In this document: in pieces, positions 32,592-54,272 of the stretch
Numbering within the stretch: position 1 is the first letter of the stretch
How the letters are laid out: each line of letters begins with the position of its first letter
Source: Diacronema lutheri
Lineage: Eukaryota; Haptophyta; Pavlovophyceae; Pavlovales; Pavlovaceae
DNA length: 64,000 nucleotides
Direction of reading: 5' to 3'
Assembly: GCA_019448385.1 (NCBI GenBank)
Contig: JAGTXO010000014.1
Span: 806,001-870,000, forward strand
Made by a program: the position numbers and the translations under genes
Notes under the pieces: model-generated
Told to the model about the DNA's origin: nothing
The model's input: the letters and a program-made list of their open reading frames with translations, nothing else
Database searches by the model: none

Positions 32592-32673
32592 CGTAAGCGC
32601 CGTCAGTACTATATACGGCGCGGTCCGGGCTGGTCCGGCCAGTGTAAGGCTGAGAGTACGACCCGGGTCGTAC
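32592..32673. repeat. Fourth copy of the dispersed motif and an 18-bp perfect palindrome
   Basis: cgtaagcgccgtcagtacta at about 32592 is the fourth copy of the motif, so copies bracket the 192-bp array. At 32656-32673 gtacgacccgggtcgtac is a perfect 18-bp palindrome, of the sort bound by dimeric regulators or site-specific recombinases. The surrounding DNA (32,600-32,900) is less GC-biased than the flanks and has no convincing gene. Confidence 0.65.
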
Positions 32674-33149: not shown

Positions 33150-33327
33150 CTAAGCGACCTCGGCCTGCACAGACTCGAACGCGTGCGTAAACTCGAGGCG
33201 TTGCAGGTGGCGAGCACGTGAGTTCGCGTAGGAGGTCTTGTACTCGGTGGCCTGACTGTCGACCGACGAGAGCTTGGGCGAGTTCGGCGGCACGTTGGCT
33301 CACTTGGGCTCGGTGCGCGGCTCTGCC

Positions 33328-33360
<33 letters not shown>

Positions 33361-34200
33361 CTTCGGACTCGCTGCCCGGCTCTGCCTGTGCGGGCGCGAT
33401 GCACTCGGACTCGATGCCCGGCTCTGCCTTCGTGGGCGCGGTCGCGGGCACGGGCGCGCCCTCGACCCCGTCGCGGTTGAAGACATCGAACTCGACGCAC
33501 ACGCCGTGGTCCTTGAAGTCGGTGGCCTCGCTGTCGTTCGCGTAAGCCTCGGGCGAACTCGCAACGAGCGACGACATCTCGGCGTGGAGCCAGCACATCT
33601 CATGCTGCACCGCGTGTTCAGGTTCTCGAGCGCTCCGTTGAAAGAGTCACTCTCACCGAGGCGCTCGCTGCACCACACCAGATAGCCATCGAGCTTGTGA
33701 GCGTGCTCGTGCGCCCGTGCGAGGTCCTTGGAGAGCGCGTCGGCGCGCGCGCACATGCCGTCGCATGACTTGGCCGGTGTCATGCTGTGCTTCCAAGGCC
33801 TGGTGCTCGGCGTTGAGCGTGTCGTGATCCTCGCGAACGAGCTGCAGCCAGCTGCAGCAGCCGCGCGACGCCGCTGTCGCCGACGATGCGCTGGAGCATG
33901 TGGCCCATGAGGTGTGCGCGGCACGTGGCGAGCGCCACATTTTTGCGCAGCAGCGCGAGGATCCGGGCGCCGCGGACGAGCCGGCCCATGCACTTGAGCG
34001 CGTAGATTCGGCCGCACATGCACGCGCCGACGACCGAGTCGGCGGGCCCGCCGTCGAGCCAAAAGTTGGCCTCGGCCGCATCGCGGCGGCGGGCGACGCG
34101 CTGAAGGATGCGCACGCGGTAGTGCCGGTCGACGAGCAGCTCGTCGCCGAAGATCTCGTCGGGCAGCAGCTCGGAGACGTTCTGGGGGTACATGCTGTGC
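33150..34200 (-). pseudogene. Decayed minus-strand gene, family not recognised
   Basis: On the minus strand, several short stretches in different frames look like real protein, beginning with a Met-Tyr-Pro-Gln-Asn start near 34,195 (SELLPDEIFGDELLVDRHYR) and including helical, Glu/Gln-rich segments and, near 33,160, LSSVDSQATEYKTSYANSR. The frame is broken at least three times, so I treat it as a fossil. It lies beside the foldback element and the PIF1 fossil and may belong to the same old insertion. Function unknown. Confidence 0.45.
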
Positions 34201-34615
34201 GAGCGTGCACGCGACGAGATCTCGTCGGGCGTGCCGTCCGTTCGTTCAGAGCAGAGCGCGTCGGACCGGCAGACAGACGATGCAGCGCGCGAAGGCACCT
34301 GCGGCGCGCGGCGTGGCCTCGCGTGCCGTCACGAAGCCGCCTGCGCGCACTGCGGAGGCGGCGAGCGCGACGAGGGCGGGCGCGGACGAGGTGCTGAGCG
34401 GCGTCACGTACGCGCCCTCGCTCGCCGAGCTCGACGCCGCGGCGCTGACGATGCGCGCGGCGTACCACACCGACCGCCCCTGAGACGATGCGCGGCGCCC
34501 GCGGAGGACTGGTCCGTTGGCGCGCAAACCGTGGGCGAAAGGGCGCGAAGCCAACGGCCGTCCGCGCACGTTCAAACGCGCGCATACGGGTGGCATCCTC
34601 CCACCTTCGGCGCCG

Positions 34616-34920
34616 CTTTCTAAAAGGGTGTAGGGTGTAGGGTGTAGGATGCAAAACAAGCCCTCCCCACATTTGGGCCCGACGTCATTCCTTCTTCGAA
34701 GCCGTGACGTTACTCACATACGAGTACCTTTACTTAGTGTAGGATGTATCTATTCTCTAGGTATTTGCATAGTGTAGGGTGTAGGATACGTACGGTTATG
34801 AAAGTCCCATAGGGGGGAGAAGGAATGACGCTGTGACGAAAGAAGGAATGACGTCGGGCCCAAATGTGGGGAGGGCTTGTTTTGCATCCTACACCCTACA
34901 CCCTACACCCTTTTAGAAAG
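34616..34920. mobile_element. 305-bp foldback (MITE-like) element with perfect 81-bp inverted arms
   Basis: Bases 34616-34696 and 34840-34920 are perfect inverted copies, joined by a 143-bp spacer that is much richer in A/T than the surroundings. The outer end begins ctttctaaaaggg and continues with three gtgtagg-type units; the inner end has gacgtcattccttctt. The spacer repeats the gtgtaggat and aggaatgac motifs. Flanks are cggcgccg on the left and cggcggcg on the right; no clear target-site duplication. A non-autonomous foldback/MITE is the simplest reading; an inverted junction of two longer copies is the alternative. The gtgtagg units resemble but do not equal the TTAGGG telomere repeat. 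Confidence 0.8.
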
Positions 34921-35069
34921 CGGCGGCGCCTCGGAGCATGGCGGCTCGACAGCATGGCGCCTCGACAGCATGGCGTCGTCCAGCGTCACGCCGCGTCGTG
35001 GTCCTGCCGCTCCTCCGTGGCGCACGGATGGCGCTCCTCCGTGACGCAGCCGAACGACGCCGCGGCGTC

Positions 35070-37171
35070 ACGGCCCGGGCGCAGTCGCCATCCTGGACGC
35101 CACGGATGGCGAACCGGTCGACGAGATCCGGCACGAGGACGTCTGCGCCATCGCCACGCAGCTCGACTGCGTCTACACGGGGCTCACGGGCTCGATGTTT
35201 GGCACCAAGTGGAACGTGTGCGGGGTCATGCTCCCGAAGCGCGCCGAGCAGCGGCCGCAGCCCGGCTCGGACGCCTTCGCCTCGTACAGCGTGGCCGCCT
35301 GGGCCGACACGTTCGACTCCACGGGGCTGTACGTGCCCGACGAGCGCGAGCGCGCGGCGGCGCTCGCGGCGGTGGCCGGTCTGCGCACGGCGCGCGCGCC
35401 GGCCGGGCCGGGCGGGCGCGAGCTCGCGCGCGCGCAGGGCTACGATCGCGCCGAGCAGGCTGCGAGCGCGGCGGCGGCGCGCGCGGCGATGGCCGAGACC
35501 GGCCAGCAGCGCGCGCTCCACGGCGCGGTCGTCGACTCGGCGCTGCGCGGCGTGGGCGACCGGCTGCACTTTTGCGACGCGCCGGGCGGCACGGGCAAGA
35601 CGTTCGTCGAGCGCGCCATCATCGCCGCCGTGCGCGCGGATGGGCACGCGGTCGTCGTGTGCGCGTCCTCGGGCGTCGCCGCCACGCTGCTGCCCGACGG
35701 CCGCACCTTCCACTCGACCTTCAAGGTGCCCGTCGGCGCCGACTCGGACGGGCAAGCCGTTCAATGGCGTGCCGCGCTCCGAGCGCGGGCGCTCCGTGGC
35801 CGCCGCGGCGAATGATCGTGGGGGACGAGGCGCCGATGCAGAAGCGGGGCCGCCTCGACTCGCTCGATCGGTGTTTGCGCGACGTGACGGGCGTCGACGA
35901 GCGCTTCGGCGGCAAGACGTTGCTGCTCGCCGGCGACTTTTGCCAGTGCTTGCCGGTGGTGCGGCGCGGCTCGCGCGCGCAGATCGTGCGCTCCTGCCTC
36001 GAGTACTCGGCATCGTGGCAGCACGATCGGCCGTACGCCTTGGTCGAGAACTCTCGCGCCTCGAACGCGGCGCGCGACACGGGCGACGCGCTCGGCGCGG
36101 GCGAGTGGGCGAAGCTGCCGCGCAGCCTCGGCGACGGCGCCTTTCCCGCGGCGGTGCCGCCTGCGGGGGCCATGCCCGGCGCATTCCCGCTCGATCCCGT
36201 GCAGCTGCCCGAGGCGTCTCGGCCTACCCGGCGGAGCTCGTAGCCACTCGCCTCCTCTCGCTCGGCGAGGGGCTGTGCAGCGGCACGCGGCTGGTCGTGC
36301 GCGGCGTGCGCGCCGGCGGCCGGCTGCTCGAGTGCGCGCGACCCGGCGCGGCCGCCGGGCGCGACAGCACCGTGCTCATCGCGCGCATCGGCCACCACTC
36401 GCCCGACGAGGGCACGTTCGCGTTTGCATGGCTGCACCGCCAGTTCCCGGTGCGGCCGGCGTAACAAGGCGCAGGGTCAAGCGCTCGGGTGCGCGGGCGT
36501 GTGGCTCGCCGAGCCGTGCTTCACGCACGGCCAGCTCTACGTGGCCGCTTCGCGCGTCGGGCACGCGTCGCGCATCCGCTTTGCGCTTGGCCCGGACCCT
36601 GTGACGCGCACCGTCGTCTTCAAAGAGGTGCTCCGCGCGGTCAGCGGTGGCGAGGCGGCGGCGGCGGCGGCGGCGTTCGCCGCGGCCGCCGTCGCCGCCG
36701 CGCGCGAATGCGCGGCGGCGGCGCGCGGTGGCGGCGGGCGCGGCGGGCGCGGCTCGGACGGCGCGCGCGGCGCCGGCGGCGGGCGGCGCGCTGGCGGCGG
36801 GCGCGACGCCGGCGCGCGGTGCTGCCCAGCACCCGCCGGCGCGACGCCCGTCGCGCCGCTCGCGGCCGACGCGCAGCCGGCGGGTGCTCGCCAACACCGC
36901 GCGCCGCGCGACTGGCCCGCGTACCTGCGCGCCCTTCTAGGGCGCGCAGGGCGGCGCCAATGCGGCCGGCAAGCAGGGGCCTCAAGCCGGCGCGCTGCCC
37001 GACGCCGCGTGGGTCGCCGCCGCGCGCGTGCCGTCGGCGCTGCCGCCGTCCGGCGTCGCGCTCGCGCCGCTGCCGCAACCTCAGCCGCCGCCGCCGCCGC
37101 CGCCTGCCGGCAAGCAGGGCAAGCGCGCAGCGGCGGCGACGGCGGTGCGCGGCCCGGCGAGCAAGCGGTAG
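35070..37171 (+). pseudogene. Decayed PIF1-family helicase gene
   Basis: Plus-strand segments in several frames carry PIF1/Helitron-type helicase motifs in the right order: Walker A CDAPGGTGKTFVERAI (near 35,590), VVVCASSGVAATLLPDGRTF, HSTFKVPV, the DEAPM Walker B region (near 35,830), LLLAGDFCQCLPVV, TRLVVRGVRAGGRLLEC, and the C-terminal GQLYVAASRVGHASRIRFAL. A basic, Pro-rich tail ends near 37,171. The reading frame is interrupted at least four times, so it is a fossil. PIF1 helicases of this type belong to Helitrons and some large mobile or viral elements; no Rep (HUH) domain is visible here, so the family stays open. Confidence 0.75.
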
Positions 37172-38334
37172 CGGTGCCGCCGAGCCGGGGGCGGGCTCCG
37201 TGGGCGACGCGGCTTGGCCCGCCACTCGCACCACTCGCGCCGGGCGCGCACAACGCGCCGTGGTCCGCTGCGTGGCCGAGCGAAAATGCGGTCCTGGCAC
37301 GCCATGCGGGAGAGGCCGTACAGCGCGTGAGCTTGGGCCCGTGATTTATTACTCATGGATTTATTACTCATGCCATGGCGTCGCGCCACGATTACGCCCG
37401 TGGCCCCGGCCGCCAGCCTCGCGCCGCTACGCCGTGTCGTCGCGGCCGGCGCACACAGCGAACTGTGTGTCCGCGGCACATGCCCGGCTGCTCGCGAGCT
37501 GCAAGCTTGCCGAACTGCTCGCGCTAAAATGGCGCGTTGCGGGCGTGCCCGCGCACCGCGCGTATGTTCCGCGCGTTCCAGGCGCGCCGCGCCGCGCGCC
37601 GAAGCGGCGCGCGGCGCACGTGCGGCCGCGAGCCGAAGAGGGGCCGGCGCGACCGGCCGCGAGGCAGACGCAGACGCTCGGCGTGCCGGTCGACGCGTCG
37701 TCCAAATCCGCGTCGGGCGGATGCGCGCCTAGGCCGGCGCTGCGTGCAATCGGCGCGGGTCGCCGCCGCATGACGAAGCATGCTTCCATCCGGTGCTCGG
37801 CCACGCGCTCGGGCGTAACGTTCGCGCCTGTTCGGCCGAGGCGCACTCGCCGTCCCCTCGCGCCGGCAATGCGCGTGCGTGCCAGCACGCCGGCAGCGGA
37901 GGATGCCACGGCAGCGGCGAGCGGATCCCCGCCGGTGTGCCGCTCGGCGCCCCGTCACGCGCAACGCGCGCGCCGCCCGCTGAACGCGCACAATTGCCTG
38001 GGCAAGATCGTCCCGCGCTCACGCCGCCGTCGCATCGTTCCATGCATGGCGCCCGGCTCGTCCGTACCGCTTTCGGGCAGTGCCGCGACGCCCTTTTTCA
38101 AAGGCGGGTGCCGCGCTGATTCGTCATCGGCCACCATCCATCTGGCCCTCTAAAGCCGGTTTGCGCGTGGGCGCCCGTCCGGTGCGAGAAGCGGCTCGCG
38201 TCCTCGCGCGGGGCGCCTCCGCGCCAGGCGCCCGGCGCGCGCTCGTCTTGCCGCGCCACCACGCTGATCTGCGCCCAACCCTCGCTCGCCTATTCCCCCG
38301 TCGTTTCTGCTGCGTAGCCCGCAACAGCGCGCGC
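37172..38334. other. Interval without a supported gene between the helicase fossil and the giant gene
   Basis: About 1.2 kb with long open frames on both strands but no recognisable domain and mixed codon use. It holds a direct duplication of gatttattactcatg at about 37342-37372, which stands out by its A/T content, and ccctttttcaaagg at 38091-38104, like the islands seen before host genes, about 230 bp upstream of the giant gene's first likely ATG. Confidence 0.5.
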
Positions 38335-41300
38335 ATGACGCGTGCACGGCGCAGCGCCTGGAGCAACTTCCGAGTCGTCGGCCGGCAGCCTGTGGGGGGC
38401 GCGTTCATCGGCCCGATGTGGCCGGTGAGAGTGCCCGACGTGCCGCGTGGTGAGCGCCTGCACGGCTCGCCGGGTTCGGCGCGTTCCCAGTCGGCCTCTC
38501 TCCGACCCGCCGTAAACCTTGCGTGCGCACCCCGCACACCCGGCGCTGCGCGGCGCGGCGCAGGCGTGAAAAACGAGGGCAACGCGTGCTACGTGAACGC
38601 CCTCGCGCAATCGCTCGTCGCCTTGAACGTGCTCCGTCCGATGCCCCGCTCCGCTTCGCGCCGTGCGGGAAGAGTCGAGAAGGCGCTTTTTCGGGACTTT
38701 GGCACGCTGCTCGAGGACACCGAGGCGCCGGCACAGCTGTGTCTTGTGTCCGTCGTCGACGTCATCTTGGGCCGTGGCACGCGAGGGACGCAGCAGGACG
38801 CTGCTGAGTTCTTCCAGATGCTACTCGGCCGAGTGCCCGGGCTCGCTGCTGCCTTCGAAGACGACAGACGCGTAGTGCTCGAGCCGATCGCTGTGGCCTC
38901 GAGCGAGCGCGGTGAGGGCATCGCCATCCTCGTCAGCATTGGCGGCGATGCGGCGCGCACGCTCGCACACGCTCTGGGGGGCGTCGCTGGGCCGCCGCAG
39001 GGTGGCAGCCCGGACGCGTGCCGCTCGGACGTGCTCATGCCAGCCAGCATTGCCGTCGAGGTGCCGCGCACGACGCGCGGCAATGGCTCGCAGTGCAAGA
39101 ACAAGCACGCGTTCGTGTGCGCGCCGCGGCTGCTACTCGGCGGGCGCGACTACCTCCTCGTCGCCGCCGTCGTGCACTTGGGCGAGGAGTCGACGAGCGG
39201 GCACCTTGTCGCCATCGTGCTCCGCAACGGGGCTTGGTTTCTGTGCGACGACGACAACGTGCGGCGGCGCGCACGGCCGCTTGGCGCCGCGACCGGCGGT
39301 TGATCGCAGCCGCAGCCGCCCCGTCCTCCCGCGCGGCACGCGCGCGTGGCCTGAAAGCTCGCGCCGCGCGCCTGCCGCACGCACGCGCGTTGCCCGCGCA
39401 GATGCACAACTTGTCTCAGTCCGACGCGCTGGCGTGGGCAAGTGGTGCGAGCATGCTCTTCTACAGCCGGCTCGACGCGGAACCGTTGGACCCGGCGCTG
39501 GGCTCAGCGTCACCGCCGTCGGCCGCATCGCCTGCGTGGCCGAGCTCGGCGCCCGACGCGCCGACCCTGTCGGCAGCCTGGTCGCGGGTGCGGCAGATGG
39601 CAGCGGTGCCAACAGATGCGACGATCGGCATCGCGGAGACGGCTGCAGACACCTCTGCGGCGGCGATCGGCCCAGCTGCGTGCGAGGCCCGCCAAGTTGT
39701 CTCCGCGACGCGCGCATTGCCAATGGCGGTGAGTGCCTCGCACGCGCACGCCGTCCGCTGTCCACAGCGTGGCGCCCGGCGCTTGCGTTCGCGCCAGGTA
39801 AAGTTTGCGCGTATAGCGTGCAGCACCCTCACGCATCCCCTACGCCTCCCGCCCGCCCGACCTCTTGCCCGCCGGCCGCGCGCAGGACCAGCGCACGCCA
39901 ATTGTTGGGCGCGGCCAAATCTGGGCATGCGCAAATTTTGAGCCGGCAGCGGAGGGCGGGGATGCGCAGCACAACTGGCGCAAGCGCACGTGGTGCCCGC
40001 AGCACGAGCAGCGCGAGCAGCGCGAGCAGCGCGAGCAGCGCGAGCAGCGCGAGCAGCGCGAGCAGCGCGAGCAGCGCGAGCAGCGCGTGCAGCGCGTGCA
40101 GCGCGAGCAGCGCGAGCAGCGCGAGCAGCCCTGGCAGCCAGCGCGGCCAGGCCTCGGCGCGGGCGCTGGCGTTCGGCCCGCTGCTCTGCCGCCGAGCCAT
40201 CCGCGCGCCAGCATGCGCGCGAGCAACCGCTTCGAGCCGCTCTTGTTGGCCGAGGCGGACGTGCCCGCCACCGAGCCCGCCGCCGCCCAGCCCGCCGCCC
40301 AGCCCGCCGCCGAGCCCGCCGCCAAGCCAGCCGCTGCCAAGCCCACCGCCGAGCCCGCCGCCCAGTCCACGGCCCAGCCTCCCACCGTGCCTGACGCCAA
40401 GCCAGCCGACCAGCCCGCCGTCAAATGCGCTGCCGCCAAGCGCGCTGACGACCGCATTGCTGCCGCTGAGGTAGGCGCCGTCGCCGCCACGCTTGCCGCC
40501 GCCACCGAGCCTGGCGGCGTTGCCGAGCTCGCCGCCGCCGCCGACGAGGGCTGCAGGGCGCGTGCCGACGCGCTCGCCAAGCGCGAGACCCGCCGCGCGC
40601 TCCACCGCGAGCAGCTTTTTCGCGAGGACAAGCGCGCGGCCGGCCGCCTGATCGAGCAGTGCGCGCTGGGCTCTGCGGACGATGCAGCGCGCGCGCGCGC
40701 CCTGCTCGAGCGCGTCAAGGCGCGTGGCCACGCGCTGCCTCCGCACCTGCTGCGGTCGCTGCGCGACCTCGCGTCGCCGCGGCTCGCGCTCGCCGCTGAG
40801 GCGGCGGGCGTGCTCGCCGCGTCCGAGATGGGCGAGGCGGACGCACCTGCGGAGGCGCGCGCGCTACTCATGCACGCCGAGGCCGTGGGCGCCCACCTGC
40901 CCGCGCACACAGAGCTCGCGCTGCGCCGCGCCTGCATCCCCACCGCCGAGCAGGCGGAGCTGCTCGCGACTGCGCGCGAGCTGCTCGCGCCGCGCGACCC
41001 CGAAGGCTCGGTGGCTCCGGCGGGCGCGCGTGCCGAGTGCGACGGCGCCGCGCTCGGCACTCGCGCGCGCGAGCTCCTCTCGCGACTCGACGAGGCGCAC
41101 CTCGACGTGCAGCCCTGCATTGCGCGGCAACTGCGCCGGCTCGCCGCCACCGAGCCAGACGCAAGTTCGAGCGCTGCGCTCGCCGCCACGCCCGGCACCG
41201 CCGGTCGCGCGGCCGCCGAGCCGCGGCGCGCGTGGCGCCCGCGCGGGTGGCGTCTCGCGGTAGGCGCAAAGGGTGCGCGCGCGCGCGCGCGCGCGCCGCG

Positions 41301-43180
41301 GCTGCTCCGCTCGACACGGCGCCGCCCGCGGCGGCCGGCGCCGTCCCGCCGCTCGAGCCGCAGCCCGAGCGCCGTGCAGCCGACGCCGCGGCCGCCGCAG
41401 CGGCGCCGGCGGCCGGCGACGACGGCGTGGCACGCGCGCTCGCAGCCGCAGCGCGCGGCGACGGCCTCGACGGCGTCGATGGCGCCGACGACCTCGTTTG
41501 CGCGCCGTGCGACCGAGGCTGCGCGCACGCACGCGACGGCGGCTGCTGCGAGCCTGCCGCGCGCAGCTCGCCCGACCAGTGCCCGCGCGCACCGCCGCGG
41601 CGCGCACGGCGGGCGGCAAAGCGCGCGCGCGACCGGCTGCGGAGATCAATCGACAGGTCAGAGCGGGCTGTCGGCCGCCGATTGCGTGGCGGCGACGCGC
41701 GCCGCGAGCGCAAGCGCAGGTGCGCGACGGGCGGCCAGCACGCACCGCAGCCGCTCCGCCGCGCGAGTCGCAGCCCGCCGTCGCGCACCGATCGGCCCTC
41801 GGCCGAGCATGCCGCCGAGCCTGCCGCCGAGCCCGACAGCCCCCACCGCCGCCCGTGTGCCGGTGCCGCCGTCGCCGTCGCCACTGTCCGGTGCGCCGTC
41901 GGCATCTTCGCGAGTGTCGTCGCCGCCTCTGCCGTCCGGGCCGCCATTGCTCCGGCCGCTCGCCCGTCTGCAGCCACCGCCTTTTGGCTCGTCGCCGTGT
42001 GCTCGGCCGCCGCATGGGCCGCCTTCGCCTCCGCCGCCCGCCCGACCGCCGCCTTGGCCGCGCCGCAGCCTGCCACGCAATCGTCGGCCGCCGAGCCCAC
42101 CGCCGCCGCGCCAGCCCCCGCCCAGCCCGCCGCTGCCGAGCCAGCCGCTGCCCAGCCCGCCGCGGCCGAGCCCGCCGTGGCGCAGCGCGACGTCCAGTCC
42201 GCCGCCCCGGCGCTGCTCGCGTGGGCGGGCGACGCGGCTGCGCTCCGGCTGGCCGATGCCGCCGCGCGCGCCGGCATCCCGCAGGCAGAGGTGGACTGCA
42301 TTGCGGGCGGCGACATGCTCGCCTCCACTGTGGACGCTTGCTGCGAGGTCGTGCTGCGCGTGCACGGGCAGGCCGGCGAAGGGCGCGTCTGCCACGTACC
42401 GCTTGCCGCTCAGCCCGCGGTGTTCCAGGACGGCGCCGAGCGCGCCGCGCTGCTGCACCGCCTGCACAGCGAGGCGACGACGCAGGCGGTCATCGGCATG
42501 TGGAGCCCGCCGGGCGGGCGCGGCGGTGCGGGCAGTGACGATGGCACGCCGCCCGCCTCCGGCCATTTCACCGCGTTGCGCCTCGTGCGCGTCGCGCGCG
42601 CGGGCGAGCATCGCTACGACGCGGTGCTTGTCGACACGCTCGCGTCGCCGAGCAGGCAGGCGCTCAAGCGTGCCAGGTCGATAACCGCCACGCTGCACGC
42701 GGCGGGCCTCGACGTCTTGCCCGTGCGCCGCGCGCGGCTGCTCGACAACGCGGCGCAGCGTGGCGCGACGTGCGGCCTCGCCGTGGTGGGCGCGCTCAAC
42801 GACGCCGCGCTCGCTGCGGCGGGCGGTGCATCCGCGCCGCGCACGTTCAGCGTGGCGGACATGTACGCTGTTGGCGAGCACCTCCGCGTCGCGTTGACTG
42901 GCGCGGTCAGCGGGCGTGCGCCGAGCGGCGCCTGCGCCGGGGCGGGCGCGGTGCGCGGCGGGGGCAGCCGCGATCGCGCTGCCGAAGCGCCGCGGCAGAC
43001 GCGCGGCGCCAAGGCCGCCGCAGACGCCGCCGCCGCTGCCGCCGTTCCGCCGCCGCCGCCACCTCCGCCGCCCGCGCTGGGCGCCGCCGCCGCCACCACC
43101 ACCGCCGCTGCCGCTGCTGCCGCCGCCGTGGCCGCGCCGCCACCGCCGCCACCGCCGCCGCGTGCCGGCGACGAGGGCGA

Positions 43181-43223
<43 letters not shown>

Positions 43224-46200
43224 GCCGCGCGCACGTTCTTGAAGCTCGCGCCCAGGGCGCGCGCGGCCGCCTCGGCGCGTGAGGCGTTGCGCGCCGCGTG
43301 TGCGCGCGCGGACGCGGCGGCGTCGTCACACGCGTCGGCGCCGCACGCGCCCGCCGGTGCGCGCCGCCGGCGGCGCGCGGGCGCAGGCGAGCTGGCGCTC
43401 GCGGCTGCGCGCGCGCTCGCCTCGACGGAGCACGGCGATTTGACGGACGACGCGCTCGAGGCCGCCGTCGAGCAGGAGCTGGGCGACGAGCGCGGCCAAC
43501 TGCTGCTGTGCACGCGGGGCGCAGCGGCGCAAAGGCCCGCGCTTTGCCGGCTCCTGAAGCACGCGTGCGCGTCGGCGCGCGCGGCGAAGCGCGCGCAATT
43601 CACGGTGTTCGTCGTGCGCGCGGCCACGCGCGGCGAGCGGGGGGGCGCCGCCGCGAGGCGCGTGGACTCGGTGGTCGAGCTGTCGTGCGCGCTGCACGAG
43701 AAGGCGGGCGCGCTCGGCGGCCTCCAGAGCGTCTGTGTGCGTGGCTTTGCCCTCGAGCGCCGCCGGACACTCGACGGTGGCGCCGAGGCCGGCGCGTCCG
43801 CCATCGGCCAGGACGAGCAGGTCGAGGCAGAGGCGGGCGAGGCGTCCGTCGCCGGCGTGACGATGGCCAAGCAGCTGCGTCAGTTTGCCGAGCAAGCTGC
43901 CCGCGACGACGTGCTCTTCCGCGTCGCCGTGTCCGAGGCCGACGCCCACGCCCGGCTGGCGCGCGTTGCGGGTGACGATGTCGGCGCGTACAGCGTCGTG
44001 CTCGCAGTCGCCGGGCTCGTCTGGCTGGCCAAGGCCGACGAGGTTGCGCCGGCGGCCGCCCGGTCCGCCGCCGCGCCGCCCGCCGCCCCGCCTGCTGCCG
44101 CCACGTCCGCCGACGCCGAGCGCGACGCCTCGCCTTCCGACCGCCTGCGCGCGCTGACGCTCGCCGTGCGAGTCGCGCTCGCGCGCGGCGTGCTGCGCCA
44201 CCTCCTCGCCGACGCGTCGCCGGGCGCGTCCGCGACCGCTGGCGGTAGTTGCGCGACGCCCGTCGAGGCGGCCGCGTCCGACGCCGCGCCGCCCGCCACG
44301 GGCGTCGTGACGAGTGGCGTCGCGGCGGGCGCTGTGGCGGCCGCACCGGCTGCTGCGGGCGGTGCGACGGCGGGTGCATCGCCCATCACGCGGCCGGCGA
44401 AGCGCGCGCGGCGCACGCTCACCGCCGCTCCAGCCGCCTCGGCCGTTGCGGCCGCTGGAGGCGCACGCGCTGGCGCACGCGGCGCGGCCGGCGCGCCTCG
44501 CGCGCGCGCCGCGCGCGCGCCGGCCGAGTACGTCTGGCTTGCCATCGCGCGCCGGATGCTGGCGGCGCGACACGCGGCGGCCGCGGGCGGCGACTTTGTC
44601 GCGTCGTGCGTCGCCGCGATGCAGGCCGAGTACGGCGACGGCTGTGCCGTCGTCGTCGGCGACGCGCCTGATGACGCCTTGGTCGAGGCTGCGGCGGCGG
44701 CGCTGCTCGAGGGCAAGCACGCGGCGGTGAGCCTCGGCTGCGTCGACCGGCCGGCGGTGCTCGTCGTGCAGCGCGCCGTGGACGCGCCCACGTCGCGCGT
44801 GCACGGGTGGTGCGCGCACGCGGCGGGCGCCGCCGAGTTTGACGAGGGCGCCGCGCACGGCGTGTTCAACGCGATCGTCGAGCGCGCGTGGGCGCTGCGT
44901 CCGGACCCGGCTGACGGCAGCCCGCCGCCCACGCGCACGTGGGAGGTCGAGCAAATCGCTGGCGACGCGCCCGACCAGGCGGGCGTGGCCGCGCTGCGCG
45001 TGCTCTACGCGCTCGTCGCGGCGCACGGCCGCTACCGCTCGGCCGCCGCGCTCTTTGGCGCGATCGCGCAGCTGCACGCGCCCGACGCCGCCGGCGCGCG
45101 CGCGGAGGTCGTCGCGGCGGCGTGCGCGGTGCCGCACGGCGCGCGGCCGGGCGCCGCGCCGGCGGCCGCGCGGGACGACGCGAGGGAGCGCGCATGGGAG
45201 GGCGCTCAGATCGCCGCGCTCGCCGTCGGCGCGGACGCTGCGCGCAGGCGTGTCGCGCCCGTGCGCGCGCTCGTCGACGCGCTCGGCACGCCACCGACCT
45301 CGGCGATCACGGGCGGGCCGGCGGTCCGGCTCGCGGGCGCGGGCGACGGCGGCCACGGTGCACGGTGGGTGGGCGGGCAGGCGGCGACGCCCGCCGAGCA
45401 GCTGCCGAGGGAGCTGCTGCGCGCCTACCACGAGGCGGTGCTGTGCGTCACGCCCGGCAGCCTCCAGCTCGGCCCGGCGGCGCTCGACGCGGTCACGCGG
45501 CCGCGCGAAAACGACACGCTGGAAGGCCTCCTCGCGCGCGTCAGCTGGCAGTGCGGCGCGAGGGCGAGCACGTGCGCCATGCTCGCCACGTTTTCCGAGC
45601 AGGCGGGCACCGGCTCGCGCGTCGCGCTCAAGGCCCTCCGCACGAGCTCCGACCTGGCCGGGCTGACGGCGGCTGCGGTCGGGCAGCAGGCGCCGCAGAC
45701 GCCGCCGCCGCCGCTGCTCGTGATGCTCGGCCGCTGCCCCAGCCCGCTCGTCGGCGGCGGCCTCTTCCCGCCCGACCGCGCGACGGGCGAGCCGGCGGTG
45801 CACGCGGCGACGTCCGAGCTCGCCGTCGAGCTGCTGCGCGACGCGCGCGCGCTGGCCGGCACGGACGGGCGGCTCGTCGTGCTGTGCCTCGAGGCGTCCA
45901 ACCCGCTCTGGTTCTGCCCCAAGGTGCGCGAGCTCGAGCTGCCGCGGACGCGGTCGGACGGCGTGCGCGCGTCCGGCTGCACCTGCCCTGCGACGTGCAG
46001 CGATGCGCGCGGCGCGGCGGGTGGCGCTGCCCGCGGCGCATCGACGCGGCCGGCGGCGCGCGCGATCAACAAGGCGGTGCTCGACCACTTCGTCGCGCTT
46101 TTCGGCCGCGAGGGCTTCGCGACCTTTGAGTTTGCGGGCGGCGGCGAGGCGAGCTGGCTGTGCGACAGCGCGGCCGGCAAGACGACCGTCGCGGCGTGCG

Positions 46201-49200
46201 CGTCGCTCCCGCCGCGCATGGGCGATGGGCAGCTGGCCATCCGGCGGCACACGCTCGGCACGGGCGCCGACGCGCCGGCGCACGCCGTCGTCTCGCTCCG
46301 CGTCGCGCACGTGAGCCACGCCATCCGCCGCGCGGCGGACGACGGCGGCGCGCGCGCCGAGCGGATGGCGCGCGCCGCGCGCGCGTTTTGCGATGTGGCG
46401 GCCGCGCTGCGCGTCGACGCGATCCTGGCGGAGGTGCCCGAGGACCGCCCGACGGGCACGCCCTTCCTTGGCGGGCTGCTCGAGTTTTGGAACAAACGCC
46501 ACGGGAGCTCGACGGCGCCAGCCACGCTCGCGCTCGGAGACGTGCGCGAGGTGGCCAAGCGGACGGCCGACGCAGCGGCCGGCCGAGCGGACGAGGTCCC
46601 TGCGGCTGGCCGTCCGCAGGTCGCGGCGCGCGCGTGCGCTGGCGCGATTGGCGGCGGCGCGGGCGCGGCGGGCGCCTCGGACGCTGCGCCCCGTGCACTG
46701 GCGGGCGCGTCGGGTGCGCGCACGGACGGCGGCCCTGCCGACGCACCGCGCCAGCTGGAGAGCCGCTACGGCGAGGCGAGCAAGCTCGACCTACCCCAAG
46801 ATTCCACTACGGGCTGCGTCCTCGACGCTCGCGAGGCCCAGGACCGCGCGCGCGTGCCTGCTGCGCCCGACGGCACAGCGCTGCGCCGCGTGCTCGACGC
46901 CGTCGGCGCGGGCGCGCCCGCGCAGCGCAGCCCGCGCTGGCACGACGAGCGATGGGAGGAGGTCACGGGCAGCAAGGTTGGCGACGTCGTGAACGACAAC
47001 GCCGGCGTCGCGCACGAGACGCTCACCGACGAGTACGTGCACCGGCGGCGGCGCGAGGTGCGGACCAAGGCGACGACCGCGGGCATCCTCGGCGAGGCCG
47101 TCGCGCTGCGCAAGCTGGCGGCCGCGTACGGCATCACCGTCGTGTGCAACCTGCCGATGGTGCGTGCGGACCCGCACGACAAGAGCGCGCCGTTCGCCTT
47201 CTCGCCGGACGGGCTCGCCATCCTCCCCGAAGACAACGAGCAGGTCCTCGTCGAGGTGAAGACGCTCACCAAGGCGGACGCCAAGGCGCACGAGGACGGG
47301 CCGCCGCAGCCGCACCGCGATCAGCTGCAGCTCGGCATGCACGTCCTCGGCGTGCGCAAAGCGCTCTACGTGCAGTACCTCAGGCACGAGGACCGGATCG
47401 TCGTGCACGTCGTGACGCGCGGCGTCGGCTGGCTTGCATTCGCGCAGCCGAGGGTGCAGGCCTTCTGGGCGCGCGTCGTCGAGCGGCGCGCGCGGCTCGA
47501 GCGCGCGCGCGCCGACCACCCGGCTGCGAGCCGGCGGCACCGGCGGCAGCAGACGCCGGCCGGGCCGCCGCTCGTGCTCGCGCTGGACGGGCGCATCCCC
47601 GCCGCGCGCGCCGCCGCGCTGCACGCCGTCGCGCACGGCACCGCGAGCGCGGCGGCGGTGGCGGCGACGGCGGCGACGGGCGACGCGACGGCGTTGCAAG
47701 ACGCGATCGCGGCGCTGCGCGCGCCCGTCGGCAATGCGGCGATCGACAGCGCAGCGCGTGCGGAGCGCGCGGCCGTCGAGCGGGCGATCGCGTACCTCGG
47801 GCAGCCGGCAGGCGACGCCGCCGCCCGCGGCACGGCCGAGGCGGCCGAGGAGGAGAGGACGGTCGACGCCGACATCTGCGCGTTGCTGCACCAGCTCGGC
47901 GCGAGCGTGGCGCACGTGCACGTCGAGGACGCGGATTGCGTCACGCGTGAGCACTGGGGCGGGGCGGTGCTCGCTGCAGCGGGCGACCCGTCGAGCGCCC
48001 CCGCCATTTCGAGCGTCATCGTCGCGCACATCGTGCGGCTCGCCGGCTTTGGCGTCGAGCTCCCGCAGTCGATTCGCGTCGCCCCCAGCACGGCCGACTG
48101 GCACGAGGGCTGGCTCGACGTGCAGTGCGTGCTGCTGCGCACGCGCCGGCGCGGGCGGCGCGACGACGACTTTGTGGCCGTCGTCAGGCGCGGTGGGCGC
48201 TGGTTTGCGTGCGAGCCCGGCCGCGCGCGGCGGCTGCAGTGGCGGTCGGTCCTGCGCCGCGCGCGCGGCGGCGTCGACGGGACCGGCGAGGAGGCGTTCG
48301 CGGTCGTCTACGTGCGGCGCGGCGACGCGGCCGGCGACGCGGCTGGCGACGCGCAGGCCGAACGGGCGCGCGGCGGGCGCGCGCGCAGGCGCACGCGCGG
48401 CGGCACGCGCAAGCGCAAGCGCGGCGCCTCCGCCGGGCTCGAGGCGGCCGCGCCCGCCGGCGCGCCGGCGGGCGCTGCTCACCGCCCGCCCGCCAGGCGT
48501 GCCACGGTCGCCGCGCGCACCACGCGCTCTGTGACCGACGCGCGGCACTCGGCGCCTGCCGCCACGGTTGCACCTGTCTTCGACTGGCGCGCCGGCCGCC
48601 CGCCCCCTGCCGCCGCCGCCGCCGCCAAGCGCGGCCAGGCGCTCGAGCCGGGGCAGTTCGCGCGGCCGCGTGGGCGCGCGCCATGGGGCAAGGTCTGGGA
48701 CAGAGTCTCGGGTGCGTGGGCGGACAAGCCGACTGGTGCTGCCGTCGCCGCCGCGCCGCCGCCGCTGCCGCCCGCCGCCGCGCCGCCGCCCGCCGCCGCG
48801 CCGCCGCCCACCGCCGCGCCGCCGCCCGCCGCCGCGCCGCCGCCCGCCGTCGCGCCGCCGCCCGCCGCCGCGCCGCCGCCGCCGCCGCCACCGGCGGCGC
48901 TCGGCCGCCGGCAGCACGTCGGCGCGGGCGGCAGCGCGGCGGGCCGGCGGCTCGCGGCCATCGCACGGCGGCAGCGCGGCGTGCGCGCGCCGCCGCCCGC
49001 CGCGCGCTTCCTCGCCACGCTGCCGCCACCGCCACGCGACGGCCTCGCGCGCACGAGCAAGCAGGCGCGCGCGAGGCGCAACGCGGACGGACGGCCGGCG
49101 CACGCGCGCGCGGCCAACGCGCGCGCCTTCTACCGCGGCGTGGAGCTCGGCGTGCACGCGACGCGCGCCATCGTCGACGCGCGCCACGCCGACCTGCCGC

Positions 49201-52200
49201 AGGCCGTCTTCGTGGCGGAGGCGCGGGCGATCGTCGCGCGCTCCGCCGGCGGCGGCGCGCTGCTCGCGCCGGACGACGTGCGCGACCTGTGCGACGCGCA
49301 GACGGACGCCGATCGCGCTGCGATCTGGGCGTCGGTGGGCGCGCACGAGGCGACGCGCATCTTCGCGCTCGTCACGCGCAACGCGAGCTTGGCGGGCGCG
49401 GCGCTGCTCGTGCTGCACACGCCGGCGGGCGCGCCGGCGCGCGCGCTCGGGCTCGTGGCGACGCGCTCGCGCGCGCCGTCGACGGGCGCGCCGCGCGACG
49501 CGCACAGGGCGCTGGTGCAGCGGTTGGACGTGCTGATGGACGCGATCGCCGCGGCGCGAGGCGCGTCGCCGCTCGAGCTCGAGCTCGCGCTCGCGCCCGA
49601 GCCGCAGAGCGCGTGCAACGCGCGTGCGGCCGCGCTGCTCTGCCTGCAGGCCGTCGCGGACGCGAGCGGCCGTCCCGCCGCTGAGGACGCGCTGGCCGCG
49701 CTCGACGACGCGCGCGGCATCGACCGGCACTGCCACGCCGTCCGGCAGCAGATCGAGGCGAAGCTCGCGTGGCGGCGCGCCGACGGCGCCGTCGGCGTTG
49801 ACGGCGCCGACGGCGCGCCCGCGCTCGCGCCTGCCGCCGCACCGCCGGCGTGCGCGCCGGCGCACGCTGCCGGCGAGGCGGCGGTCGACCAGGCGATCGT
49901 CACGCGGGTGCGCGACGCGCTGCGCGCGTGGGCGACGACTGGCACCGCGCCCAGCGCGGCGGTGCTCGACGACGCCTGCGCCGCGTACACGGCGCGCGCA
50001 CGCGCGCGCAAGGACGCGCGCACGGCGCTGGGCCCGACGCGCGCGGCCGAGCTGCTCGCCGCGGCCGCGCGCGGCGGAGCCGACGGGGCGGATGCCGCGC
50101 GCGCGCTGCTCGGCGGCACGCCGCGCCTGCTCGTCGTGCTCCTCTGCGTGCCCGTCGCCGCGCCGTCCGGCGAGCCGCCGCGCCCGGTCGGGCTGCTCGT
50201 CGCCGACCGGCCGACGGACGACTCGCGCCCGGCCGCGCTCGTGCGCTACGACTTTGCGCCGCTCGACGCGGACGTGGCCGTCGCGGTCGGCGCGCATGCC
50301 GTCGCGCTGGCCAGTGCGATCTGGCCGCTGCTCGCGGCCGAGGGGGAGCCGCGGCCATCGCCCGTCGTGCGCTCGCAGCCGCGCGGCGGCGACGATGGCG
50401 CGTGTGCGCTCGCAACGTTCGCGTGCCTCGACGCGCTGATGACCGCCAGCGTCGGCGCGCACGGCCTCGCGGGCGGCGCGGGCATGCTGCCCGCGCTGGT
50501 CGCGCGAGGCGCCGCGGCCGCCCAGCGCGAGCGGCAGCTGCGCGCGGCCGCCGAGAGGCTGGGCGGCACGGTCGCTGGGTGGCCGGACACGGGCGCGAGC
50601 GCGGCGGGCGCGAGCGTCGACGAGGAGGCGCGCACGTACGAGGTCGAGGCGGTCGTCGACGAGCGCCGCAAGGCGGGCAAGAAGGTGACGTTCCAGTTCC
50701 GGATCAGGTGGCGGGGCTACGACGAGAGCGCCGACACGTGGGAGCCTGAGGCCAACGTGAGCAGCGACCTCGTCGCCCAGTTCCGCAAGACGCGCGACGA
50801 GCAGAAGCGGCGCGCGGGCGTATCGGGCAGCGGCAGCGGCGGCGCGGGCGCGGCGTCGGCATTGGCGTCGGCGCCGCTTCGCGCGCACGGCGAGTCGGGC
50901 GCCGCGGGCAAGCGCGCCGCGGCGGGTGCCGCCGCGAGCGCGCGCGACGCCGCGGGCGCGCGCGCGCCGAGCGTTCCCCGCGCGCGCGGCGTCGAGCGCG
51001 CGCGCGTGGACGAGCCCGCTGCGCCGAGCGCGCGCGCCGCCGGCGGCGCGACGGCGCGCACGCGCGGCAGCGTGCTCCCGGGCTTCGTGGTCAAGCGCTC
51101 GACGCTCAACGCGGGGCCGCAGGCGGTGACGGCGCAGCCCGGTGCGCGGAAGGAGCTGCGGCGCATCGCGGCGGCCGTGCACAGGCTCACGACACAGGCG
51201 TACCGCGTCATCAACAAGGTGGTGCGCGACGAGGCTGCGGTGGCGAGCGCGCAGGCCGTCGGCGCGGCGTCGGGCGGCCCGTCGACCAGCGTGCACACGT
51301 CGACCACGATGGACAAGGGATCCGTCCGTGCGATCTTCTCGGCCATCGGCTGGCACAAGGACGAGAGCACGTACGGTGCAGCGCCCCGAGGCAAGCCCGC
51401 CGAGCAAGCCGCCGCGCAGACCAAGGCGGCGACGGCGCGCGCCGTCGGCGAGATGGCCGAGGGCGTCCAGCCCGTCTGCGCGGTGGGCCTCACGGAGATC
51501 CTCGAGGCGGAGGCGACGCAGGTGTCCACCGCGTGCCTGATGCATCCATCGCGCGTCGTGAACGGGCTGCTCCGCGACGTCGTCCGCGCGGCAGTCGAGC
51601 GCGACGAGGCGCTCGTCGCGCTGCCCGAGATGCAGCGAAACGCGCGCGTGCGCGAGCTGTGCGAGCGGCTGCTGCGCGGCGACGTGGAGGGCGCGCGCGT
51701 CGGCTGCCCCGCCGCGCTCGACCGCCACCTGCCCGACATGGTCCTCCACAAGATCGACTACAAGTGCACGCCCACGAAAAGGTGGAACTACGACCGGCAC
51801 ACGACGCGCTACTTCCTCGTGCAGATCCGCACCCTGCAGCACGTGGCCGAGGGGCAGGCGCTGCTCTGCCGGCTCGCGCACATCCACACGCAGCTGACCG
51901 GACGGCCGCCGCGGTACAATGTGGCGCCGCTGCGCACGCACAATGTGCGCGCGAGGCGTGGCTGCCGCTGCCGCCGCCGAGCGCCCAAGCGCGCGCGCCG
52001 CCGCCGTGCGCGCCGCCCCGCGGCCAGGTTGGTCACGCGCCCGCGCGCTCGCGCGCCGCGCGCTGCGCGCAGGTGCCGCGCAACGTGCGCCTCGCCGCGA
52101 GCGCCATCTGGGTGACGCTTTCGGATGACGAGCGCAAGGAGCTGCGCGCGCGGCTCAAGGCGCTGGACCTGCGCGACCACGATGGCGAGCCGATCAAGTG

Positions 52201-53797
52201 GACAGGCACAAACGGCAACACCCCGCCGATGTCGGACGTGCGCGTCAGGTACGCGGTCTTTGCGACGCGCTTCGACATCTCCAACCGCGTCTTCGACTAC
52301 GCCGGGCGCGAGCGGCCGCCGGCCGATCTGCCGTGGCACGCGCGGCGCTCGTGGGTTGGCCTCGCGCCGCTGCCGCGCGTGCCGCTCCCGGGCCGGCAGC
52401 CCGTCAAGTCGGTGGTGACAGATGGCGTCGCCGTGCACGCCGTCGGGACCGTCCTCGTGCCGAAGGCGCAGGCGCCGGCCGGCGGCTCGGGCGTCCTGCA
52501 CCGCTGGCGCCGGCCGGACGGGCGCATCGCCGTCGCGCTCGGCTCCGAGCTGCGGCGGGCGATCGACGTCGAGGCGGCGGTCGTCGTCGCGGCCGACCCG
52601 AACATGGGCAACATCACCACCTACTCTGCGCACGTCGGGCGGGCGGCCGTCTGGCGGCAGTTCACGCAGCGCGCGCGCGCGCGCGCCGCGGGCTTTGCGC
52701 GCGAGACGGCCAAGACCAACGCGGCGCGGCGGCGCGTGCGCACCGACGGGCGCGGCGAGGAGTTCAGCGTGGAGGCGGACGAGGCGCGGCTTGGCGAGGC
52801 GCACAGCGCCAAGGTGCTCGACGCGGGCAAATACATCGCCTTCCACCGCGAGAGCGCGCGGGTGCGCGAGCGCGCCGCCGAGCACGTGTACGACGCGCCG
52901 GCGCGCCGGAAGGAGCGCTGGCGGCGCGACAGCGGCGGGCGGTCCAACGCGGCGCGCGTCGCCGAGGCGCTCATCGCGGCGCACTGTGTCGACGGCGTGA
53001 CGCGCGACCGGCTGCTCGTGTGCGTGGGCAAGTGGCTGCGCGACCACAAGGGCGCGCAGCCCAAGGGCGCGCCGCCCGCCTTCCAGGTGGGGCTGCTGCG
53101 CGAGCTGCGGCGGCGCGGCGTCGCGGCCGTCTTCGTGCCCGAGCCGTACACGTCGATGCACTGCTCGATGCCGCGGCTCGCCAAGGGCGGCAGGCTGCAG
53201 CGCTGCGGCGCGGAGCTCGCGCAGAACCCGCGCCTGCCCGTGGCAAAGGGCGGCACGCGCACGGTGCACGCGCTCGTCATCTGCCCGGCGTGCAACGGCG
53301 GCAAGAAGCCCGTGCACCGCGACTACAACGCCGCGCGCAACATCTTCTACGACGTGCACGACATGGCGGCGCACGCGGCCGGGCGCGACACCACGTCGAC
53401 GCCTGAGCGCTTTGCCCTCGTGCTCGCCTGGTGGGCGCGCGGCGAGGTGTGGGAGCGTGAGGAGCGCATGGTGCACGGCGAGGGCGACGACTGCGACGAC
53501 GAGTGCGACGGCGACGACGAGGGCGACGACGAGGGCGACGACGACGACGACGACGATGGCAGCGGCGACGGCGGCGGCGGCGAGGGCGACGGCGACGGCG
53601 ACGGCGACGGAGGCGGCGGCGGCGACGACGACGATGACGGCGGGGGAGGCGGCGGCGGCGACGGCGGTGGCGACGACGGCGGCGGGCGCGGCGGCGGTGG
53701 CGGCGGCGGCTCTCGCGCCCGCACCCCCGCCCGCGGAGCTGCCAGCGCCAGTGCCGGCGGCGGCAGCGCGCGCGGGCCGAAGCGCGGCCGGCGTTGA
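38335..53797 (+). CDS. Giant multidomain protein: USP protease, Ulp1-like protease repeats, YqaJ nuclease, chromodomain, Fanzor nuclease
   Basis: Five exons restore one frame: 38335-39258, 39402-39728, 39886-41272, 41401-51944, 52073-53797 (phases 0, 0, 1, 0), about 4,968 residues. Exon 1-2 junction joins the two halves of a USP domain (FLCDDDN to MHNLSQSDALAWASGASMLF), and the last junction joins the two halves of Fanzor, so both are well supported; the 41272/41401 junction has an alternative AG at about 41380. Domains: USP at residues 75-345; Ala/Pro and Gln-Arg-Glu repeats; Ulp1-like protease near 42.2-42.9 kb with weaker copies near 44.5-45.1, 49.1-49.7 and 49.9-50.5 kb; YqaJ-like nuclease 46.8-47.5 kb; Pro/Ala linker 48.75-48.9 kb; chromodomain 50.63-50.80 kb; Fanzor from about 51.06 kb. 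Donors are host-like (GTGCGG, GTGAGT, GTGCGC, GTGCGC). The 10.5-kb exon has no stop, and the element looks whole. Whether one protein or several are made, and which ATG is used, is not shown. Confidence 0.7.
38560..39470 (+). other. Domain: USP/UCH (peptidase C19) ubiquitin-specific protease
   Basis: Catalytic Cys box GVKNEGNACYVNALAQSL (Cys codon 38587), the box around RGTQQDAAEFFQMLL, and the His box ESTSGHLVAIVLRNGAWFLC (His codon 39202) followed by the Asp-rich CDDDN and, after the intron, the closing strand ASMLFYSRL. At about 270 residues it is a minimal C19 fold without the zinc-finger insertion. It should cleave ubiquitin from substrates or from the polyprotein's own surroundings (inference). 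Confidence 0.85.
40003..40128 (+). repeat. 9-bp tandem repeat encoding Gln-Arg-Glu repeats
   Basis: About fourteen copies of cagcgcgag in frame with the giant gene, read as QREQREQ..., preceded by a WRKRTWCPQHE stretch. It predicts a long charged helix. Two copies have gtg for gag. Confidence 0.9.
42200..42870 (+). other. Domain: Ulp1/adenain-like (clan CE) cysteine protease
   Basis: The order His-Asp-Gln-Cys typical of clan CE is present: PASGHFTALRLVRVA (His codon 42563), YDAVLVDTLAS (Asp codon 42633), then NAAQRGATCGLAVVGALND (Gln codon 42756, Cys codon 42771). This class removes SUMO or ubiquitin-like tags and also processes viral and transposon proteins. Similarity is by motif and spacing only. 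Three related segments further along lack one or more of these residues. Confidence 0.6.
46780..47520 (+). other. Domain: YqaJ / lambda-exonuclease-like PD-(D/E)XK nuclease
   Basis: QRSPRWHDERWEEVTGSKVG opens the domain as in YqaJ proteins; GILGEAVALRKLA supplies the early Glu (codon 47094), FSPDGLAIL the Asp (codon 47208) and VLVEVKTLTK the E-x-K (codons 47253 and 47259), followed by RDQLQLGMHVLGVRKALYVQ. These are the metal and catalytic residues of the family. Such enzymes are 5'-3' exonucleases used in phage recombination and found in some eukaryotic mobile elements. Confidence 0.82.
50630..50800 (+). other. Domain: chromodomain
   Basis: RTYEVEAVVDERRKAGKKVT, FQFRIRWRGYDESADTWEPE and ANVSSDLVAQFRKTR give the full chromodomain pattern: a first strand Y-E-V-E, the W-R-G-Y-x-x-x-x-x-T-W-E-P core and the closing helix. 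Aromatic cage residues (Tyr of TYEVE, Trp of IRW, and Trp of TWEP) are all present, so binding of a methylated histone tail is possible. Confidence 0.9.
51060..53797 (+). other. Domain: Fanzor (eukaryotic TnpB-like RNA-guided nuclease)
   Basis: Begins around GSVLPGFVVKRSTLNAG and is split by the intron 51945-52072. RuvC-I is VVVAADPNMGNITTYS (Asp codon 52595), RuvC-II is AAVFVPEPYTSMHCS (Glu codon 53141), RuvC-III is KKPVHRDYNAARNIFYD (Asp codon 53321). Between II and III sits a Cys4 zinc ribbon (MHCS, RCG, ICPAC). The N-terminal helical part includes DMVLHKIDYKCTPTKRWNYD. All catalytic residues are present. The C-terminal 110 residues are an Asp/Gly-rich tail ending in a basic GPKRGRR, a possible nuclear signal. 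Confidence 0.88.
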
Positions 53798-54272
53798 CGC
53801 ACGGCCGAGCCGCGCAGCGGTCGACGCTTTGCGGGCTCTGCCCAGGTCGCGCGCGGCTGGCGACGCGTGCCGCGCGCGGCACGACCGTGCACGCCGCCAC
53901 CCGTGGCCGAGCGCGCCGCACCAGCCGGCCCGCTCCAACCGCCGTGCGGATCACGGACGCTCGCTACGGCTCGTCGGCGCGCGTCACCTGCGCCGGCGGC
54001 CACGGCGCCGTCTGCTCCGGCCTCGTCGCGAGCAGCCCGACCGCTGCTCGCCGCCCGCACGCCGCCGCAGCAACGCTGCGCGTCGTGCTCCCCCGCTCGC
54101 CAAACGCGAAGAGCTCCCTCACAAGGACGTCCTTCCGAACGGCCCGCGCTGCACTCGGGGCGCGATCGTGCCCCTGATCGGATTTGGCTTGACCATCTAT
54201 ACGTGGCGTCGGGCGGCCAAGAACTAAGAAGTCGCTGGGCCAGCCCGGAGGGCACGGTGGACTGGTGGAGAG

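Follow-up and report, generated by a model that had tools for sequence, protein, structure and literature searches.

The window analysed here, a 64,000-nucleotide stretch of the genome of the haptophyte Diacronema lutheri (GenBank contig JAGTXO010000014.1; C85:806001-870000), contains a short-form member of a family of giant DNA transposons that is present in ∼190 copies. The copy carries a giant gene in which profile matches and motifs indicate a Fanzor nuclease domain together with a chromodomain and a phage-type exonuclease domain, preceded by regions related to PIF1-type helicases and USP proteases. The genome searched comprised 43.49 Mb in 103 contigs; the published assembly has 103 contigs, 43.50 Mb and 73.25% GC (PMC8379373). 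The features of the element, in window coordinates, are as follows.

32609-54202, + strand: whole mobile element, short 21.6-kb form, with ends common to copies
32609-32616, + strand: left-terminal 8-mer, CTATATAC in the window copy, preceding a constant GGCGCGG
32656-32673, no strand: perfect palindrome of 18 bp, GTACGACCCGGGTCGTAC, close to the 5′ end
34608-34928, no strand: inverted repeat, 89-nt arms 99% complementary and 143 nt apart
35045-36600 (limits approximate), + strand: PIF1-type helicase gene, in several frames, apparently damaged
38563-39252, + strand: region matching the USP (UCH) proteases in two stretches (Pfam UCH, 2.8e-15), with Cys and His boxes
39850-41200 (limits approximate), + strand: segment of the short form that is coding-like by codon-phase GC, with no known domain
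42150-51944 (start approximate), + strand: main exon of the giant gene, from the open frame, codon-phase GC and substitution pattern
42561-42776, + strand: His, Asp, Gln and Cys residues of a Ulp1-like set, by motif only
46914-47489, + strand: lambda-exonuclease/YqaJ-type nuclease domain (PHROG 434, TIGR03033, weak Pfam YqaJ)
50637-50789, + strand: chromodomain (Pfam Chromo, 4.5e-12, model positions 1-52 of 53)
51069-51944, + strand: putative Fanzor N-terminal half, from its position and a phase-0 splice to the C-terminal half; no separate profile match
51945-52072, + strand: predicted intron, GT..AG, phase 0, giving the in-phase join ...PLRTHN/VPRNVRL...
52073-53797, + strand: Fanzor C-terminal half, with RuvC D/E/D, four-Cys zinc ribbon and acidic tail
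53798-54202, + strand: 3′ non-coding end, the expected place for a Fanzor guide RNA, identical in the compared copy

The identity of the element is solid. The exact 5′ 33-mer and the exact 3′ 27-mer occur 186 and 193 times in the genome, respectively, while reversed-pattern controls gave 0 occurrences in both cases. When window positions 30001-38500 were used as a query, 22 other copies were matched (23 of 1,750 candidates scored); 21 of these have a common 5′ start within ∼36 bp of position 32609, two of them matching in two pieces, and the remaining copy begins 96 bp later. Similarly, the 3′ end is common to copies while the flanking DNA differs. The left-terminal 8-mer varies among 41 copies (CTATATAG in 13, GTATATAG in 5, others in 5, and the window's own version in 18), and the right end is CCATCTATAC wherever the right junction was located. 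There are no terminal inverted repeats; the inverted 400-bp ends do not have a single 10-mer in common. Palindromes are visible by eye near both element ends, and the fold around the 5′ palindrome (92 nt) is modest, with a z-score of −1.84.

Copies are near-identical where they were compared. The Fanzor half is stop-free and 99–100% identical in 93 of 93 scored copies (423 candidates), and the copy on contig 71 aligns to window positions 42097-54203 at 98.2%, with near-identity from 43.24 kb onward and ∼82–92% in the preceding kilobase. Because the compared copies are so alike, the family has probably been active recently. The initial annotation had proposed a self-contained mobile element; its mobility is borne out by the two sets of end motifs, whereas self-containment is not supported for this short form with its apparently damaged PIF1 gene. 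The shielding from ubiquitin/SUMO control that was also proposed would be a hypothetical role; the USP carries no sign of purifying selection in the one pair of copies compared.

Pairing of the ends revealed discrete size classes. The sample comprised 98 3′ ends and 98 5′ ends, drawn from 100 listed of the 193 and 186, respectively; 62 of the 98 3′ ends used could be paired with a 5′ end and 36 remained unpaired. The paired copies measured 21.4–22.2 kb (14 copies), 26.0–26.9 kb (8), 29.1–29.4 kb (8) and 30.5–32.5 kb (31), with one at 12.7 kb, so that 61 of 62 fall into four classes of about 21.6, 26, 29 and 31 kb and 47 are longer than the form found in the window. Together they total 1.72 Mb; extrapolated to all copies this is near 5 Mb, and the element may thus, by extrapolation from copy count, account for roughly a tenth of this compact genome. 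A 31-kb copy, C71:151838-182854, matches the window at 99.4% over its first 2.4 kb and at 87–96% in the helicase and USP regions. Ahead of the common 12-kb 3′ part it has ∼10 kb without a match in the window, replaced there by 2.4 kb of the window's own DNA. The coding-like segment at 39850-41200 has no match in the 31-kb copy, and no Pfam match above cut-off.

The giant gene is marked by a frame of 3,771 codons without a stop (40800-52115, + strand). In 100 same-length sequences from a first-order Markov null, the longest frames averaged 814 codons with a maximum of 1,461; the observed frame is well beyond this, though long open frames are common in such GC-rich DNA. Third-position GC in the frame is 0.80–0.98 over 33 intervals between 42.2 and 52.1 kb (≥0.93 in 21 of them) and second-position GC is low in most of the same intervals, the pattern of a coding frame; from 52.1 kb the coding signal shifts to the frame of the Fanzor C-terminal half, and 41.3–42.1 kb is not coding-like. 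The frame is coding. Comparison of the window with the 31-kb copy gave a ratio of non-synonymous to synonymous change (dN/dS) of 0.42 in the Ulp1-like stretch (42207-42893; 1.25–1.44 in the wrong frames) and of 0.52, on 9 synonymous and 12 other changes, in the remainder of the giant exon, which hints at constraint on the gene from one pair of copies. An antisense frame of 1,787 codons (46791-52154, − strand) lies opposite the giant gene; it has no Pfam match and is probably a by-product of GC-rich codon use.

It had been claimed initially that a single spliced frame of ∼4,970 codons included the USP protease. What stands is the open coding frame, joined through the intron to the Fanzor half; the length and the USP part found no confirmation. 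The stop-to-stop frame plus the Fanzor exon amount to 4,289 residues, with the first methionine at 42315. The USP region, whose UCH profile match and Cys and His boxes support membership of the C19 proteases, lies upstream in a different frame, separated by non-coding-like DNA at 39.2–39.8 kb. In the long copy the USP region (4.3e-8) lies, by eye, ∼3 kb ahead of the likely start of the giant gene.

The placing of exonuclease, chromodomain and Fanzor in one gene, also claimed at the outset, is upheld by profile support and by the in-phase predicted intron. The exonuclease domain matches PHROG 434 (RecE-like exonuclease) at 7.7e-16 over ∼190 residues and the lambda-exonuclease family TIGR03033 (NCBIfam) at 6.3e-6 over positions 3-151 of 153, the latter below the family's own curated cut-off. 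The Pfam YqaJ match in the window is weak (0.014; 16.1 bits against a 22-bit cut-off), and genome-wide, with 150 of 203 candidates scored, that cut-off was reached once, by a match of 5.9e-5 in the sister copy on contig 71. By these profile matches the domain belongs to the lambda-exonuclease/YqaJ family. In contrast to the RecE/YqaJ exonucleases of phage recombination, it is a single domain within a giant eukaryotic element protein, and no partner annealing protein was recognised. The only relative found for the exonuclease region among 8,000 candidates was P0005, a protein listed under Pavlova lutheri, which matches the giant protein and agrees by eye with the contig-71 copy at one residue where the window differs. 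No relative of the giant protein as a whole was found at E 0.001 among 2,026 candidates.

The Fanzor assignment rests on the motif set: the three RuvC acids (D, E, D) and the four-Cys ribbon are all present, as initially reported, and support membership of the Fanzor/TnpB nucleases. The motifs ADPN, EPYTSMHC, RC, CPAC and HRD have counterparts in the related protein P0002, in which the RuvC and zinc residues are conserved; P0003 and P0004 lack the zinc part. Pfam Cas12f1-like_TNB matches the C-terminal half at 1.8e-6 (28.4 bits against a cut-off of 26.3), while NF040570 (guided_TnpB) reaches only 0.016, far below its cut-off. With the Fanzor half as query, 8,000 candidate proteins yielded four matches, of which one was at 99% and the others were at 39–47%. 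When a profile of the window half and three distant relatives was run against PDB at E ≤ 1, Cas12f1 (0.012) and an unrelated protease (0.72) were returned. RNA guidance of the domain we infer from family membership only; an Rfam search of the window gave no match.

Other parts of the giant protein are less readily placed. A Ulp1 or clan-CE protease had been proposed, and the motif residues do occur; profile support was not forthcoming, as Pfam gave no match in the window protein and nothing that passed its cut-off in the comparable stretch of the long copy, which has no PDB sequence match either. Tandem Ulp1-like repeats were considered and rejected, as 21 pairwise local scores, with 150 shuffles each, gave z-scores of −1.3 to 2.9, mostly at chance level. 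An endonuclease/exonuclease/phosphatase-like reading of 45.6–46.6 kb, made by eye, found no profile support and was likewise dropped. No profile recognised the roughly 1,200 residues encoded at 43.2–46.8 kb.

Two frames of the window helicase match Pfam PIF1, at 6.5e-19 and 2.7e-23. The gene lacks an N-terminal stretch and ∼340 bp that are found in the 31-kb copy, whose helicase scores 1.8e-24 for the PIF1 core and 6.2e-13 for a 2B domain; an SSB-like reading of the N-terminus of this longer helicase was made by eye and lacks profile support. Longer copies with the fuller gene probably supply helicase to the short ones.

Junctions were read for the window copy and 20 other short-form copies (both sides in 19 of the 21) and for 20 more copies, three of which run into contig ends. 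In 35 of the 36 copies with both flanks there is no junction repeat beyond 2 bp. Two copies sit in repeats that are present elsewhere without the element, so that the empty sites could be resolved. At the first, ∼8 bp join the flanks in place of the element in 11 of 11 repeats, with CATTGAAT in 9 of them; at the second, ∼8 bp do so in 12 of 12 repeats read (13 matched), with CATTAAAG in 9, variants in two and a form one base shorter in the last. An AT-rich target of ∼8 bp is replaced by the element at both resolvable sites; at a third candidate empty site, on C46, the junction was not resolvable. Both lost 8-mers start with CATT (two cases only). Over the 36 copies, the AT fraction is 0.475 in the left 10 bp and 0.464 in the right 10 bp, as compared with 0.341 at 30–60 bp. 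On the right it is 0.449 over 0–25 bp (p 0.0007 against 30–60 bp), on the left enrichment to 25 bp is not clear (p 0.075), and at 10–25 bp the right flank exceeds the left (p 0.007).

Several insertions (the window left flank to 32608; L082-L089, L096, L097) adjoin a repeat family ending CGTCGTTAGT/CGCCGTCAGTA, often followed by TATATA-like DNA, which looks like the end of another mobile element. A few copies have the same 5′ flank (C86:1156974 and C28:466365; C75:1020631, C94 and C95) and mark duplicated or allelic regions. Contigs C1, C3, C8, C12, C14, C32, C33 and others end at the element end or one base past it; in the contig-terminal copies among the matches listed, it is more often the 3′ end that faces outward, while the 5′ end does so at C32 and C49. 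Telomere targeting may be suggested by contigs ending at the element 3′ end, but an assembly break at a repeat edge explains them equally well; such breaks reach the 3′ edge more often because the 5′ parts differ between subfamilies. Just to the left of the element 5′ end is a 192-bp tandem array (31313-32242; 4.8 copies at 97%), and nearby on the − strand are ordinary-looking host genes at 16237-18219 (RNA polymerase Rpb2-type), 7487-9574 (FAD-dependent protein) and 27700-30318 (AAA ATPase).

How might such an element move? Pfam scans for mobility enzymes covered the longer element frames, and in these no DDE transposase, Helitron Rep or recombinase scored above cut-off; a break-and-copy mode is therefore favoured. 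The best reading is that this is a new group of giant Fanzor transposons, perhaps moved by its own set of nuclease, exonuclease and helicase. We put the probability of a giant transposon that encodes the exonuclease-chromodomain-Fanzor protein, the PIF1-type helicase and the USP and inserts by breaking and copying with its own nuclease, exonuclease and helicase at roughly 0.4, and that of the mechanistic details lower. On this model the element would multiply by copying and not by classic cut-and-paste. The chromodomain would dock the protein on chromatin, the Fanzor domain would open AT-rich DNA and then cut it, the exonuclease would trim the ends, giving the lost 8 bp, and the helicase would drive copying of the element into the break. 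A cut-and-paste DDE transposon is not supported, in view of the missing terminal inverted repeats and a duplication of 0–2 bp in 35 of 36 copies.

Several observations weigh against the break-and-copy model. Both element ends are conserved, which cutting and copying alone fails to explain. In one of the 36 copies the target is duplicated over 12 bp; that target contains the element's own end sequence CTATATACGG, and this copy fits another mechanism better. The 8-bp length at the second empty site rests on aligning TGAGTGT with TAAGTGT, because the filled copy has a diverged right flank. For the window copy and the 31-kb copy, dN/dS was 0.94 and 1.98 in two stretches of the helicase and 1.3 in the USP (0.69–0.77 in the wrong frames), with no sign of purifying selection in either gene. 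The RNA fold of 53963-54203 is unremarkable and not significant (z −1.46); a guide RNA is putative, and an insertion cut made by the Fanzor domain hypothetical. Finally, the region at 43.2–46.8 kb could conceal a transposase.

Fanzor proteins occur in several kinds of transposon, including Helitron2 and unclassified elements without inverted repeats (Bao and Jurka, 2013; PMC3627910). Like the Fanzor1-bearing transposons described there, including Helitron2 CRe-1/2/3, the family here has a Fanzor on a DNA element, and the Fanzor1 motif D-X(125-275)-[TS][TS]-X-X-C4 finger-X(5-50)-RD fits the window protein; Helitron2 Fanzor1 elements also lack inverted repeats and have AT/T-rich sites, as here. 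In contrast to CRe-1/2/3, the present element is 21.6–31 kb long, encodes a giant multi-domain protein in which Fanzor is combined with exonuclease and chromodomain, loses ∼8 bp of target and yielded no Rep in the frames scanned. The Mucor MCi-2 Fanzor elements likewise have no recognisable inverted repeats and form subfamilies with differing 5′ parts and a near-identical Fanzor-coding 3′ part; they differ in their 6-kb common part, 1–3 kb variable 5′ regions, 11 copies and, in two subfamilies, target duplications of 11–12 bp (PMC3627910). With the biochemically tested Fanzor SpuFz1, the element has the RuvC/zinc nuclease family in common, and the adjacent motif of SpuFz1, CATA, resembles the CATT of the lost 8-mers, though two cases prove nothing; the SpuFz1 locus differs in being ∼2.1 kb long with a single frame and inverted repeats (Saito et al., 2023; PMC10432273). 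The words ‘Ulp1’, ‘YqaJ’ and ‘fused’ do not occur in the main text of PMC3627910, nor ‘Diacronema’ and ‘helicase’ in the available text of PMC10711439, on the origin of Fanzor, nor ‘transpos-’, ‘helicase’ and ‘Fanzor’ in the main text of the D. lutheri genome paper (PMC8379373). The domain combination was not found in literature searched by title and start of abstract, with most subscription journals and separate bioRxiv preprints outside its coverage.

That the element is instead a Helitron-like (Helitron2) rolling-circle transposon, with Rep acting in trans or too diverged to recognise, is unlikely but deserves serious consideration, given its PIF1-type helicase, the lack of terminal inverted repeats, the usual absence of target duplication and the AT-rich sites. 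Nevertheless, Rep was missing from the scanned frames, and PF14214 has one match genome-wide as against ∼190 element copies; the 12 kb around that match do not contain the element's full end motifs, even with up to 3 differences. Folding of the 3′ end is at the level of shuffled sequence (z −0.02). Helitrons have the ends TC...CTRR, unlike the CTATATA...CTATAC found here, and loss of an 8-bp target is, to our knowledge, not among their features. Many of the Fanzor1-bearing Helitron2 elements have 7–19 bp duplications (PMC3627910), a range that includes the 12 bp of the one copy here. The genome's sole Helitron Rep match (L100/L101, C63:30001-42000) lies beside a frame of repeated ‘HLEVLQWAREHGCEW’ units that are ankyrin-like by eye.

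We are similarly doubtful of integration by a site-specific recombinase, as in Crypton- or Starship-like elements, on a short core common to both ends. CTATA(TA)C is present at both ends and recurs as a core in one target, each of the two resolvable sites shows an exchange of ∼8 bp, and the large size without inverted repeats recalls the Starships. However, the scanned frames contain no tyrosine or serine recombinase domain, and the target cores differ from the left-terminal 8-mer of the window copy, which site-specific crossover should tolerate poorly. It is very improbable that the element is the relic of a virus-like replicon with a giant-virus-type gene set that is now a repeat: exonuclease, helicase, USP- and perhaps Ulp1-type proteases are indeed carried by large DNA viruses, but the frames given to Pfam hold no capsid, packaging ATPase or polymerase family, one scan of viral contigs (71 pattern matches) confirmed no relative of the Fanzor half, and the fixed ends, which recur at many sites unrelated to one another, resemble those of a transposon. 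Duplication of an ordinary host gene by genome rearrangement or assembly error, which the contigs ending exactly at element ends and the few copies with a common flank might suggest, is refuted by the junctions: both ends are sharp, the flanks are unrelated at almost every site read, and there are empty sites that match.

A more far-reaching version of the break-and-copy reading, to which we give little credence, is that the family represents a new superfamily among the giant transposons of eukaryotes, one that does without a classic transposase. An RNA-guided nuclease domain would itself open the target, and the built-in exonuclease, helicase and chromatin anchor would finish insertion; the 8-bp loss and the AT richness of the right flank would then be traces of a guided cut. 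Fanzor proteins are known RNA-guided cutters whose function for their carrier elements is an open question. Here the nuclease is joined, in one predicted protein, with a chromatin reader and an enzyme of resection, the expected transposase was not recognised, and ∼190 copies, near-identical where compared, are present in an alga that can apparently be cultured. With a Fanzor-exonuclease-chromodomain element that has no recognised transposase, what a guided nuclease contributes to transposition in eukaryotes can be tested directly.

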